Source: Natronobacterium haloterrestre (GTDB lineage: Archaea > Halobacteriota > Halobacteria > Halobacteriales > Natrialbaceae). From it: 64,000 nt of DNA. The stretch covers positions 186,001 through 250,000 of the forward strand of contig NZ_FOKW01000007.1 in the NCBI RefSeq assembly GCF_900112205.1, given 5' to 3'. Under the pieces are notes generated by a model, which had not been told where the DNA came from, did not search any database, and was given only the letters and a program-made list of their open reading frames with translations. Shown piece by piece: positions 42,659 to 47,736 of the stretch (position 1 is its first letter; each line of letters opens with the position of its first letter). The position numbers and the translations under genes were made by a program.

Positions 42659-45136
42659 ATGACGTCGTTCCAGTCGACACTCGGTGAGGAACCGGGGATC
42701 GCCGAGGAGCTGGCGGAGAGCCAGCAGGCGATCTCTATCGCCGAGTTCTTCGAGAAGAACAAGCACATGCTCGGCTTCGACAGCGGCGCTCGAGGCCTCG
42801 TCACGGCCGTCAAGGAGGCCGTCGACAACGCCCTGGACGCCGCCGAGGAAGCCGGTATTCTCCCCGATATCTACGTCGAAATCCAGGAGGAGGGTGACTA
42901 CTACCGGCTGATCGTCGAGGACAACGGCCCCGGGCTGACGAAGGAATCGCTGCCCAAGGTCTTCGGGAAACTGCTCTACGGTTCTCGTTTCCACGCGCGC
43001 GAACAGTCCCGCGGTCAGCAGGGGATCGGGATCTCCGCCGCCGTCCTCTACTCACAGCTGACCAGCGGCAAACCCGCGAAGATCACCAGCCGCACCGAGG
43101 GCTCGAGCGAGGCACAGTACTTCGAACTGATCGTCGACACCGACGACAACGAGCCCGAGATCAGCGTCGAGGAGACGACCACGTGGGACCGCCCGCACGG
43201 CACGCGCATCGAACTCGAGATGGAGGCGAACATGCGCGCCCGCCAGCAGCTTCACGACTACATCAAGCACACGGCGGTCGTCAACCCCCACGCGCGCCTC
43301 GAGCTGCGCGAGCCACAGGCCCACTTCAAATTCGAGCGCGCGACCGACCAGCTCCCCGAGGAGACCGAGGAGATCCGACCCCACCCCCACGGGGTCGAAC
43401 TCGGGACCGTGATGAAGATGCTGACGGCGACAGACTCCCAGACGGTCTCGGGGTTCCTCCAGGAGGAGTTCACCCGCGTCGGGAAAAAGACCGCCGACTC
43501 GATCATCGACGCCTTCCGGGACCGCCACTACGGCCGGGAGATGCGCTGGCGCCCGCCCGCGGTCCACGAGGACGTCGACCTCCACGCCGCCGTCGAGGAC
43601 GCGACGGCGAACAAGGGCGCGGACGCGACCGCCGCCTTCGCCGAGGCCATCGCCGAGGAGGTCGACGGCTACGACCGGATCGCCCACCACGAACTCCTCG
43701 AGGTCGTCGACGAGGCGGCCGAAGCGGTCGAGGACGATCACGGCACCACCTTCGGCGACACGGTCCGCGAGAACGCGGTCGCCGCGGTCTGGCGCGACCT
43801 CGTCGATGCAACGTCGGAGGATGAAGCCGCCGACGGCGACGGCGACGCAGGGGCGGACGAACCCGGGGAATCCCGACTCGTCGCCGACCTCTACGACCTC
43901 GCCGACGAGGCGACGAGCACGCGCAAAGACGACGAGGTCGTCCGCGCGTTCGCCGAACGGCTCGCCGGCAAGTTCGACGACGCCACCGAGGACGACGTTC
44001 GCCACCGGCTCACTCGAGACGACCTCGTGGCGTACGTCGACCGCGCCGCGGACCTCACCGAGGAGTACGACGACGTCGCCTTCGGCGACACGGCCCGCGA
44101 GAACGTCGTCGAGGCGATCTGGGACGTGATGGCGACCGTGCCCGACGACCCGCCGCTCGTGCGCGAACTCAACGGCGACCGCGACGCGACCAGCGACCTC
44201 GTCGACGGGATGCGCGCGACCGACATCATGGCGCCGCCGACGCGGTGTCTCTCGCCCATCTCCGCCGATCTGATCGAGGCCGGCCTCGAGAAGGAGTTCG
44301 ACGCCGACTTCTACGCCTCCGCGACCCGCGACGCCGAGGTTTCGGGCGGCGACCCGTTCATCGTCGAGGCCGGCATCGCCTACGGCGGCGAACTCGAGTC
44401 GGAGGGCGGCGCGGACGTGATGCGGTTCGCGAACCGCGTCCCGCTTGTCTACCAGCGCGGCGCGTGTGCGACCACGGACGTGGTCAAGTCGATCGGCTGG
44501 CGCAACTACGGGCTCGACCAGCCCGGCGGCTCCGGCCTGCCGAAGGGGCCGGCCGTCATCATGGTCCACGTCGCCTCGACGAACGTCCCCTTCACCAGCG
44601 AATCGAAGGACGCCGTCGCGAACGTTCCCGAGATCGAGGACGAGATCGAACTCGCGATCCGCGAGGCGGCCCGCGAACTCAAGAGCTACCTCAACAAGCG
44701 ACGGTCGATGCAGAAACGCCGGAAGAAACAGAACGTCCTCGGCAAGATCCTGCCCGAGATGGCCGAGAAGGTCGCCGAAGTGACCGGCCGCGAGGAACCC
44801 GACATCGACGACGCCATCGCGCGTATCATGAACAACGTGCTCGTCGAGCGCCAGGTCGAGGAGAACGGCGACTCGAAGGCCGTCTCCGTCGTCGTCGAGA
44901 ACAACTCCGGAACGAACGAGAGCCTCGAGATCACGGACATCGTCTCGGCCGAACCGACCGACCTCTCGGACGGCGCGACGGTCGTCGAGATGGACGGCGA
45001 GTGGTTCGTCAAGTGGGAGCCCGAGGTCTCGAGCGACGACGAGGCGACCCTGGAGTACGAGGTGCCCGACGGCGCGAGCTGTGATCTCGACGTGAAGGGT
45101 GTCGAAAGCGAGAAACTCACGGTGAACGAACAATGA
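42659..45136 (+). CDS. top6B: DNA topoisomerase VI subunit B
   Basis: An 825-residue GHKL ATPase from the ATG at 42659; the 14-codon upstream extension is unlikely. The ATP-binding site shows [24 protein letters not shown] and [12 protein letters not shown]2TH and transducer domains follow, with an extra acidic region (about 390-460) typical of haloarchaea. It closes on ATP and drives strand passage by Top6A. TATA-like box (CCTTTTAG, ~42626-42635) lies about 28 bases upstream. The stop overlaps the ATG of top6A. Confidence 0.96.
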
Positions 45137-46224
45137 GCGCGGACAACGAGCAAGAAGCCAGAGAACAGTTGATCGATCTCGCGGCGCAGTTCTACGACCA
45201 GTTCGAACTGGGCGAGATCCCTCACATGTCCGTGCCGACGCGGACGAAGAACAACATCGAGTACGACGAGGAGAAGGACGTCTGGGTCTACGGCGACCGG
45301 GAGTCGACCCGTTCGGCGAACTCCGTCCGCGGCGCACGGAAGCTGTTGAAGGCCGTGTACACGATCGAGTTCCTCGCCGACCAGCTCGACGAAGGCCGGT
45401 CGTCGACCCTGCGTGAACTCTACTACCTCTCGGAGAGCTGGGACAACGAGGAGGCCCAGTTCTCGGATCAGGACGAGTCGAACCAGCTCGTCGAGGACTT
45501 AGAGATCGTGTCGGGCGCGACCCGCGAGGACTTCCACATGCGCCCCGAGGAGTCGGGTGCGACGATCATGGGTCCGCTGCACCTGCGCGAGCAGACTCGC
45601 CGGGGGGAACGCGAGATCCACTGCCAGAAGGACGTCGGCGAGGGCGGCTACCAGATCCCGAACAACCCGGATACGATCGAGTTCCTCGACTGTGACGCCG
45701 ACTTCATCCTCGCCGTCGAGACCGGTGGGATGCGCGACCGGCTCGTCGAGAACGGGTTCGACGACGAGTACAACGCCCTGATCGTCCACCTCAAGGGCCA
45801 GCCCGCACGGGCGACCCGCCGCATCACCAAGCGACTCCACGACGAACTCGATCTCCCCGTGACGGTCTTTACGGACGGTGACCCGTGGTCGTACCGGATC
45901 TACGGCTCCGTCGCCTACGGGTCGATCAAGTCGGCCCACCTCTCAGAGTACCTGGCGACGCCCGAGGCCCAGTTCATCGGTATCCAGCCGGCCGACATCG
46001 TCGAGTACGAACTGCCGACCGACCCGCTCTCGGACTCGGACGTCAACGCCTTAGAGAGCGAACTCGAGGACCCACGCTTCCAGACCGACTACTGGGAGGA
46101 ACAGATCGAACTCCAACTCGAGATCGAGAAGAAGTCCGAACAGCAGTCGCTGGCGTCCCACGGCCTGGACTTCGTGACGGAGACGTACCTGCCGGAGCGA
46201 CTCGACGAGATGGGCGTCCTGTGA
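45133..46224 (+). CDS. top6A: DNA topoisomerase VI subunit A
   Basis: A 363-residue Spo11-like subunit overlapping top6B by four bases (ATGA). The WHD region has [12 protein letters not shown], where Y97 or Y98 is the catalytic tyrosine that attacks DNA. The TOPRIM domain carries the [18 protein letters not shown] acidic pair. Together with Top6B it forms the A2B2 type II enzyme that decatenates and relaxes DNA with 2-base overhangs. Confidence 0.96.
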
Positions 46225-46227
46225 ACC

Positions 46228-46304
46228 GCCTCGGGGTCAAGTGGTTCGAGAGACTTCCTCTCTCGTCATCACGGAAGACGAAGTCTTCCGTACGACTCCG
46301 AGGC
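46228..46304. other. Structured inverted-repeat element (three-way junction), possible IS200/IS605 end or small RNA
   Basis: An outer stem pairs GCCTCGGGGTC (46228-46238) with GACTCCGAGGC (46294-46304), ten Watson-Crick pairs and one G-T. Inside are two hairpins: CGAGAGA/TCTCTCG (46247-46265) and a perfect 9-bp stem with a 3-base loop, ACGGAAGAC/GTCTTCCGT (46271-46291). It lies directly after the top6A stop. The architecture resembles right ends and associated structured RNA of IS200/IS605-type elements and haloarchaeal palindrome-associated elements. No tnpB is present, so it would be a remnant. Confidence 0.7.
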
Positions 46305-46389
46305 ACTCGGCCTGTTCCGTCTGTAGACGGGAACGGGACGTCACCGGTTTTCGACGGGATCGAAAGCGGAGAATCGGGTTTCGGATCCG

Positions 46390-47736
46390 CTACAGGTAGC
46401 CGAACTCGTGGGCTGCGCCCATGAGGCCGAACAAAAGCACCAGGGCCAGGCCGACGCTGTAGTAGGCGATCCACTTGCGGGAGGGCTGGAACGGTTCGGG
46501 CAGATGCTCCCTGACGACGTACCAGTTCGCGGGGTAGAACAGGATTTCGGTGACCGCAAGCAGTGCGGAGATCCAGATCAGGAACGTCACCGGTACGGTC
46601 CCGACGGTGAGGACGACGCCGCAACTGACCGCGACGATACCGACGACGACCAACTTCCGGATCGGTTCGCTGTCCAGGTCCTCGCGCTCGAGCGCCATCG
46701 GGAGGACGTCGGCAGTCGCACGCGACGCGCCGTCGAGCAGCGTGATGACCGTCGAGTAGAGCGCGGCGAACGCACCGAGGACCATCGCGTAGTAGGACCA
46801 CTCGCCGAAGGACTCGCTTAGAATGTCACCGATCGCGACCGCGAGGTTCGCGTCTTCGGGTGGGTTGGGGTAGAGGACGTTCGACGCCAGGAGCACCATC
46901 GCGACGATGAGTACGAAACTGAATACGTAGCCGATGTTGAAGTCACGCCGTCCGGTTCGAATCCAGGCACGGATGTAATCGTGATGCCGCTCGTCGTCCG
47001 GATCGAGGCCCCGTTCCCGGAGTTCGCCCGCCCCTTCCCCCTTGGCCATGCTCCAGCTACCGATGAGGACGCTCGTGCTGAATCCGGTCGGGGCGAACCC
47101 GGCTGCGGCGGCGAAGAGGCCGACGAACAGCGGCCCGGTGAGGTCCGGGGCGGTAAACGTCGTCTCGACGACGACCTCGCCCGAGGGTGGGCCGACCAGG
47201 ACGCCCACCAGGACGAGCACACCGAGCGCGATCGTAAACCCCATTAAAAGTTTCTCGAGGAGGCTGTACCGTGCGAATAGTACGAGCGCACCCGCGAGGC
47301 CGACGCAGGCGACGAACGCCTGCGGGAACGAAAGCGGGGTCAGGGCCTCGACGAAGGCCGCGGTGCTCATCCCGACGGCGGCCGTGATCCCGGTGTAAGC
47401 GACCGTAAAGACTGCGACGGTGAACCACTGCATCCAGTTTTTGGGGCCAGGGATGTCGCCGTACGCCTCGACGGGGTTCCCGCCGACCCCGTAGTTGTAG
47501 CGGATCCCGAGTTCCCAGCCGCCGTACTTCGCGAGGTAGATGATGGCGAACACCCAGATCGCGAAGAGGCCGAACGTCCCTCCGAGCGTCGGTGCGAGGA
47601 CGATGTGACTCCCGCCGATGCCGATCAGCGCCCAGAGCATCGACGGCCCGAAGTGGTTCTTGAAGAAACCGGCCCACTCCGAGGACGGGTAGGTGAGATC
47701 CGGTTCGTCGGTCGTCTCAGTGGACACGCCGCTCAC
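46390..47736 (-). CDS. NRAMP-related transporter lacking canonical metal motifs
   Basis: A 448-residue membrane protein with about eleven helices and the NRAMP overall arrangement. The helix-1 motif is GIGGSHIVLAPTLGG in place of DPGN, and helix 6 has GFAPTGFS in place of the usual MPH. It is therefore likely to carry a substrate other than Mn2+/Fe2+, or to be a divergent member (some NRAMP relatives move Mg2+ or Al3+). The start at 47736 gives an acidic N-terminus. An inverted repeat sits at the predicted transcription start (47832-47854). Confidence 0.78.
   Translation of the reverse strand: MSGVSTETTDEPDLTYPSSEWAGFFKNHFGPSMLWALIGIGGSHIVLAPTLGGTFGLFAIWVFAIIYLAKYGGWELGIRYNYGVGGNPVEAYGDIPGPKNWMQWFTVAVFTVAYTGITAAVGMSTAAFVEALTPLSFPQAFVACVGLAGALVLFARYSLLEKLLMGFTIALGVLVLVGVLVGPPSGEVVVETTFTAPDLTGPLFVGLFAAAAGFAPTGFSTSVLIGSWSMAKGEGAGELRERGLDPDDERHHDYIRAWIRTGRRDFNIGYVFSFVLIVAMVLLASNVLYPNPPEDANLAVAIGDILSESFGEWSYYAMVLGAFAALYSTVITLLDGASRATADVLPMALEREDLDSEPIRKLVVVGIVAVSCGVVLTVGTVPVTFLIWISALLAVTEILFYPANWYVVREHLPEPFQPSRKWIAYYSVGLALVLLFGLMGAAHEFGYL

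Follow-up and report, generated by a model that had tools for sequence, protein, structure and literature searches.

The DNA analysed here, hereafter called the window, is a stretch of 64,000 nucleotides from Natronobacterium haloterrestre, and one segment of it raises the question of why a highly regular three-way junction should stand directly behind top6A. A preliminary description had placed an outer stem of 11 pairs, one of them G-T, around two hairpins at 46228-46304, and both structure and coordinates were borne out. The arms of the outer stem (46228-46238 and 46294-46304) are 91% complementary with all 11 pairs formed in the RNA fold, hairpin 1 reads CGAGAGA-cttcc-TCTCTCG, and hairpin 2 reads ACGGAAGAC-gaa-GTCTTCCGT with 9 perfect pairs. 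The structure had been judged too regular for chance, and the 77 nt folded as RNA indeed gave -44.1 kcal/mol against a mean of -25.1 (sd 3.7) for shuffled sequences (z -5.14), none of 200 shuffles being as stable. The junction also lies, as had been said, just 3′ of the stop of top6A, a plus-strand open reading frame of 363 aa (45133..46224) for which orthologues were found and whose name is taken from the preliminary description. Downstream, a convergent minus-strand open reading frame (46390..47736), which we take to be an NRAMP-like transporter, has relatives beside top6A in loci L111, L115, L116 and L131. Rfam gave 0 matches in the window at the gathering score, and scans for bacterial-type promoters and terminators called nothing at the element.

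The likeness to the right end of an IS200/IS605 element, or to a palindrome-associated element, that had been proposed for the whole junction holds for its outer stem, but not for the junction as a single element. On the minus strand the outer stem reads GCCTCGG(A/G)G...TTGACCCCGAGGCGGTTCAC, which is the same right-end palindrome as in tnpB elements of the own genome (L028, L032, L033), and the two hairpins form a module of their own, here called M, which has an independent distribution and is inserted in that palindrome. The outer element is an IS200/IS605-type terminal-only remnant (PATE type) on the minus strand at 46221..46327, in which 53 bp of its own and an insert of 54 bp make a composite of 107 nt. 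In minus-strand sense it runs from TCTACAG on the left through the palindrome to GGTTCAC on the right, at top6A, whose stop codon (46222-46224) falls within the terminal GTGAAC of the remnant. The near-terminal palindrome, likewise on the minus strand, has one arm with its loop at 46228..46241 (plus-strand letters GCCTCGGGG-TCAAG) and the other arm at 46296..46304 (plus-strand letters CTCCGAGGC, one change from CCCCGAGGC). The outer limits were drawn from the stretch common to many copies; an empty site of the remnant whose flanks could be aligned was not found. Its ends, GTGAAC and CTGTAGA, are by eye not inverted copies of each other, and because only 53 bp are left without M it is non-coding. 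The palindrome near its terminus is akin to that of IS605-type elements and matches the right ends of the three tnpB elements named above, and the remnant is present or absent at one site, namely after top6A within the genus, both of which place it with the PATEs.

Comparison of filled and empty copies demonstrated the composite nature of the junction and the precision of its joints. A 53-bp copy without M in the own genome (C15:809584) is identical to the window remnant at 48 of 53 positions once 54 bp are removed from the latter, so that M must have been inserted cleanly, without duplicating its target. More M-less remnants were found at L301 and L308, in genomes G080 and G081. The search for other copies and for tnpB, which the preliminary description had suggested, returned 24 matches to the TnpB ribbon family in the own genome, near-full copies of the element at C24:78946, C20:490247 and C9:302630 (at 90-91% in the DNA search), and partial copies, two of them within tnpB genes. 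In a longer PATE at C20:489924-490325 (L010, genome G000) nearly the same palindrome occurs twice, once empty and once filled by M, and the right half of this PATE is found again at C9:302643. At the right ends of the tnpB elements L028, L032 and L033 the palindrome is plain (GCCTCGGGG-CTTGA-CCCCGAGG), and the same right-end palindrome with the double hairpin inside was found in the full tnpB elements L068, L190, L209 and L215. Of two sister tnpB genes on contig C26, L039 has the hairpin GGCTGTGTGG|CACAGCC with no M, and in L040 the same letters are split by 60 bp while the TnpB frame stays open. In every comparison the filled copy differed from the empty one by TGGTT...ACGA, set without duplication between a G and a C. 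Judged from these copies, the outer stem has another origin than the two hairpins. A first idea, that L006 and L008 show the junction as a permanent component of the tnpB right end, was dropped, as L039 has the same tnpB hairpin without M.

In the window, M is a 54-bp double-hairpin insertion on the plus strand at 46242..46295, composed of TGGTT, hairpin 1 (46247..46265), TCATCA, hairpin 2 (46272..46290; CGGAAGAC-GAA-GTCTTCCG) and TACGA. It matches model R1, which was built from five own-genome sequences including that of the window itself, with 77.3 bits (E 2.2e-20); this is the one strong match in the window, the next best having an E of 0.017. Comparison likewise established M as a family, with the plan TGGTT-hairpin-TCATCA-hairpin-(A/T)ACGA. 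Extraction by a fixed pattern gave 105 distinct instances with 96 distinct sequences, 53-63 bp long and mostly 54 or 60, and the linker was TCATCA in all 105 although the pattern permitted linker variants. The 3′ end was AACGA in 74 instances, TACGA in 30 and AAGGA in 1. At least 7 pairs counted from the base were present in 110 of the 119 distinct hairpins, the first pairs being fixed by the extraction pattern. The two strands start GTGGTTCGA and GTCGTTCGA in the AACGA form, which makes short near-inverted ends, and both strands start GT(G/C)GTTCGA. Covariation, another check proposed earlier, was scored on 29 of the 96 distinct sequences, namely those of 54 nt with 19+19 hairpins. Here 99.8% of stem cells were paired against 29-50% in slid structures, both-sided (compensatory) changes occurred in 6 of 16 stem pairs, and the covariation score was reached by 0 of 500 shuffles; the number of pairs with both-sided change alone was equalled by 49 of 500 shuffles and is not beyond them. 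The covariation indicates that the hairpins of M are preserved as structures while their letters vary. According to the preliminary description, a lack both of haloarchaeal relatives and of covariation would have told against a conserved element; instead, stem pairs covary and relatives are present in most haloarchaeal genomes searched.

M was found in 120 of the 125 genomes of the family (R1, E <= 1e-3) and in 332 of 391 sampled genomes of the class (E <= 1e-5), the positives coming from 80 of 86 genera and from 11 families. When genomes were drawn from the phylum, R1 matched 75 of 392, all 75 from the same order; the 20 misses listed (297 more were unlisted) comprised 14 labelled 'same phylum' and 6 that belong to the same order or family. 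These large searches used stricter filters, with few candidates scored per genome. Among the 20 genomes reached via named loci 19 matched R1 (E <= 0.01), including Haloquadratum walsbyi J07HQW1, Natronomonas gomsonensis, Haloferax mucosum, Haladaptatus litoreus, Halobellus inordinatus and Halorientalis regularis, and Natrinema pallidum was the sole one without a match. Match counts overstate copy number because both strands of the near-symmetric element are counted, and in the own genome 19 rows (E <= 1e-3) correspond to 13 places in 11 loci. Sites were classed by regular expressions, under which some PATE copies (L071, L214, L259) fall in 'other'.

Hairpins were also observed nested around and within M. 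At L093 (C20:328223), L095 (C11:84045), L067, L084, L193 and L227, M forms one arm of a repeat within a larger array of many hairpins; the repeats have outer bases like TTTTGCCGAG...CAGCGCAAAA and often lie near gene ends, and the array as a whole resembles a further family of haloarchaeal repeats. Other hairpins sit inside the TCATCA linker at L096 (C10:164894) and L095, as hairpins nested in hairpins. In L083 and L087, M lies within a long imperfect palindrome that holds GGATTTGAACC-like letters, reminiscent of a tRNA T-arm.

Apart from the remnants, M was found in the right-end hairpins of full tnpB elements and within tnpB genes, and three kinds of IS-linked site were established by comparison. 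M was found 11 times in the tnpB ribbon hairpin, each time with a length of 54 or 60 bp, multiples of three, against 57 of 94 instances elsewhere; as the copies are related, these are not 11 independent events. The TnpB frame is open through M in 7 of the 11; of the other four, L069 stops at the contig end, another frame is the longest in L074 and L079, and the frame is apparently broken in L212. At the 3′ end of the tnpB gene L043 (C16:326298) the frame crosses several tandem hairpins besides M before the stop, and the flanks of L043 with M recur in L300. The omega-RNAs of Halobacterium are described as carrying a right-end hairpin (PMC12558985), and this may be the hairpin entered by M in tnpB elements. 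Such a right end would lie at the 3′ end of tnpB on the same strand, which is not the arrangement at top6A: there is no tnpB in this part of the window, where the neighbours are top6A and the convergent transporter-like gene, and none of the 24 own-genome TnpB ribbon matches is on contig C12.

The M-filled remnant follows top6A in two of the five genomes of the genus, G000 and G081, and is missing from this place in G080, G082 and G083; no such element was seen after top6A in the 27 named relatives whose downstream sequence was viewed (of 80 loci). Between G000 and G081, top6A is 97.2% identical and the downstream 1.4 kb 96.3%, and the remnant, in the same place, agrees in 51 of 53 bases. M agrees in 39 of 54 (72%), with a 2-nt length change; its joints are kept and both hairpins differ. 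With differing hairpins thus established by comparison at one orthologous site, either the same loop would have been entered twice or the hairpins would have been replaced in place. Just after top6A, several relatives without the element have partial tandem copies of the gene's final 20-30 bases, stop codon included, which occur one to three times and about 60-80 bp apart (L111, L118, L120, L122, L188, L231 in G083 and L233 in G080).

The junction is most probably a PATE-type remnant at the end of top6A whose palindrome was entered by M, a short mobile repeat. A transposase-free IS200/IS605-derived remnant of 53 bp would have inserted on the minus strand at the extreme end of top6A, and its near-terminal palindrome GCCTCGGGG-TCAAG-CCCCGAGGC would then have been entered by the 54-bp M, between the G of the loop and the 3′ arm and with no target duplication. 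This second insertion, into the palindrome of the remnant, would have produced the three-way junction. No cellular function is needed to explain the element. M itself is presumably mobile, as far as its sequence comparisons go, and no partner gene was found for it. A tentative idea, which we hold to be somewhat short of an even chance, is that M moves as folded single-stranded DNA into the loops of palindromes, through an enzyme acting in trans or through template switching at replication in trans. A general preference of M for palindrome loops was expected by the author but not established in two tests. In 23 non-redundant contexts, pairing across the M junction did not exceed that at GC sites within these loci (p 0.41); the 23 were left after L080 (an opposite-strand duplicate) and L081 (short-flank) and then, as redundant, 46 of the other 69 rows had been dropped. 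A second test of preference for enclosing palindromes kept 27 of 86 rows, with short-flank and redundant rows out and new rows admitted only if starting GTG, and gave an overall p of 0.11; perfect stems of at least 7 bp were enriched at M, in 6 of 27 against 3.7% of 1620 controls. The claim of loop entry is therefore limited to the two settings for which there are empty copies, the ends of IS elements and the hairpin of tnpB.

It is rather unlikely that an IS200/IS605-family Y1 (HUH) transposase recognises the hairpins of M on single-stranded DNA and moves M in trans, in the manner of REP and RAYT. The two hairpins with conserved unpaired flanks, the shared GT(G/C)GTTCGA start of both strands and the lack of target duplication would suit such an enzyme, and Y1 matches are present in 93 of the 125 family genomes. 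Of the 32 genomes without one, however, 29 carry M (19 of the 20 listed and, by subtraction, 10 of the 12 unlisted), and in the own genome all three Y1 matches have a tnpB match nearby, and nothing points to a free RAYT. A Y1 in the same genome is therefore not required for the presence of M, even if past Y1-driven movement may have occurred, and for the same reason no mobilising enzyme was identified.

We are also doubtful of a spread without transposase, in which template switching or repair synthesis would copy M at hairpins as the DNA replicates, such as has been proposed for the hairpin elements of organelles. The double-hairpin elements of fungal and other organelle DNA are tandem short hairpins that are mobile without a known enzyme; their hosts differ, being organelles of eukaryotes, and the likeness to M drawn here is one of form. 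Such copying agrees with the lack of any enzyme found, with hairpins that differ in place with both arms altered together (G000 and G081), and with the other hairpins nested in the M linker of L095 and L096, whereas the exact constant ends and joints constant throughout haloarchaea better fit a recognised element.

We give still less credit to the idea that the 107-bp composite of PATE and M is itself the mobile unit, M being an allele of its palindrome that rarely enters independently. In several families many copies of this remnant do hold M at one and the same point of the loop. Yet M was also found away from the remnant, in tnpB genes, hairpin arrays and other settings, remnants that lack M are common within the genus, and M differs in place between G000 and G081. 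A functional RNA, be it a 3′-end or terminator structure of top6A or a decoy omega-RNA right-end hairpin for TnpB, is improbable, for although the fold is very stable, lies directly 3′ of the stop between convergent genes and has an outer hairpin resembling the haloarchaeal omega-RNA right-end hairpin as described in PMC12558985, it is missing after top6A in most relatives, has no terminator-like site called and no Rfam match, differs in its hairpin letters between close sisters, and would have its omega-RNA sense on the minus strand.

Insertion of M into a PATE-type remnant has close precedents. The PATEs of Haloquadratum walsbyi are described as transposase-free, with a near-terminal palindrome as in IS605-type elements and terminal-only forms of 52 bp (PMC3119063). 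The remnant shares these traits, with 53 bp against 52; in contrast its palindrome is split by M. The comparison is with the published description of the Haloquadratum PATEs. The same 2011 genome paper describes SMR-A, repeats of about 110 bp with prominent terminal inverted repeats, in three unrelated families within one species, which insert, without duplicating their target, into the palindromes close to the termini of PATEs and IS605-type elements, and it calls the movement of such short mobile repeats enigmatic (PMC3119063). M is likewise short and non-coding and enters such palindromes, which were found both filled and empty, with no target duplication. It differs in its length of 53-63 bp over the 105 instances, in being a double hairpin with fixed joints, in occurring in most haloarchaeal genomes sampled and in standing also inside tnpB frames. 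M was itself present in the genome record of Haloquadratum J07HQW1, and the likeness drawn here to SMR-A (HqIRS42, HqIRS43, HqIRS55) is to their published description. SMR-A is the nearest described kind, of which M is probably a shorter haloarchaea-wide variant or relative. Among the literature matches listed for the SMR names, relevant text was found only in PMC3119063, and the titles and abstract openings of the papers listed on haloarchaeal palindromic repeats, archaeal REPINs and MITEs contained no description of M. The identity of the junction, a terminal-only PATE whose palindrome holds a short mobile repeat, is well supported; the combination of kinds is a known one, and the variant of the repeat is new, shorter and far more widespread.

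Among bacterial elements, REP dimers may lie inside palindromes, GTAG REP families are associated with RAYT transposases, and CGTC REPs, including RPE-4 and RPE-6 of Rickettsia, are described as having no known transposase (PMC3733652). M resembles these short palindromes, which often form inverted pairs, sometimes inside larger palindromes, and have tag bases outside the stems, in that its hairpins are tagged by unpaired motifs and paired in inverted fashion, with fixed joints and near-inverted ends. In contrast, the hairpins of M always come as a fixed pair joined by 6 nt, its outer tag is GTGG/GTCG and not GTAG or CGTC, and no RAYT was found. The palindromic elements of Rickettsia are short hairpin DNA within genes whose frame is preserved. 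M too sits within genes with the frame kept, but its in-frame cases were seen in tnpB only, at the 3′ part.

A bolder proposal, which we hold to be less likely than not, is that M is a haloarchaea-wide double-hairpin mobile module and the archaeal counterpart of REPINs and of the Rickettsia palindromic elements, with no known transposase for its movement. It would home to IS200/IS605 hairpin loops, among them a coding hairpin of tnpB guide RNAs, in which the frame is kept, and their right-end hairpin, would be inserted anew or re-written in one and the same loop of sister species, and hence might act as a parasite or regulator of TnpB systems. As M is shorter, present in most haloarchaeal genomes sampled and available in exact filled and empty pairs, the question of how it moves becomes testable in tractable haloarchaea. 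The entry of M into tnpB hairpins, with the frame mostly kept in the readable cases, links it to the biology of the RNA-guided TnpB nucleases.
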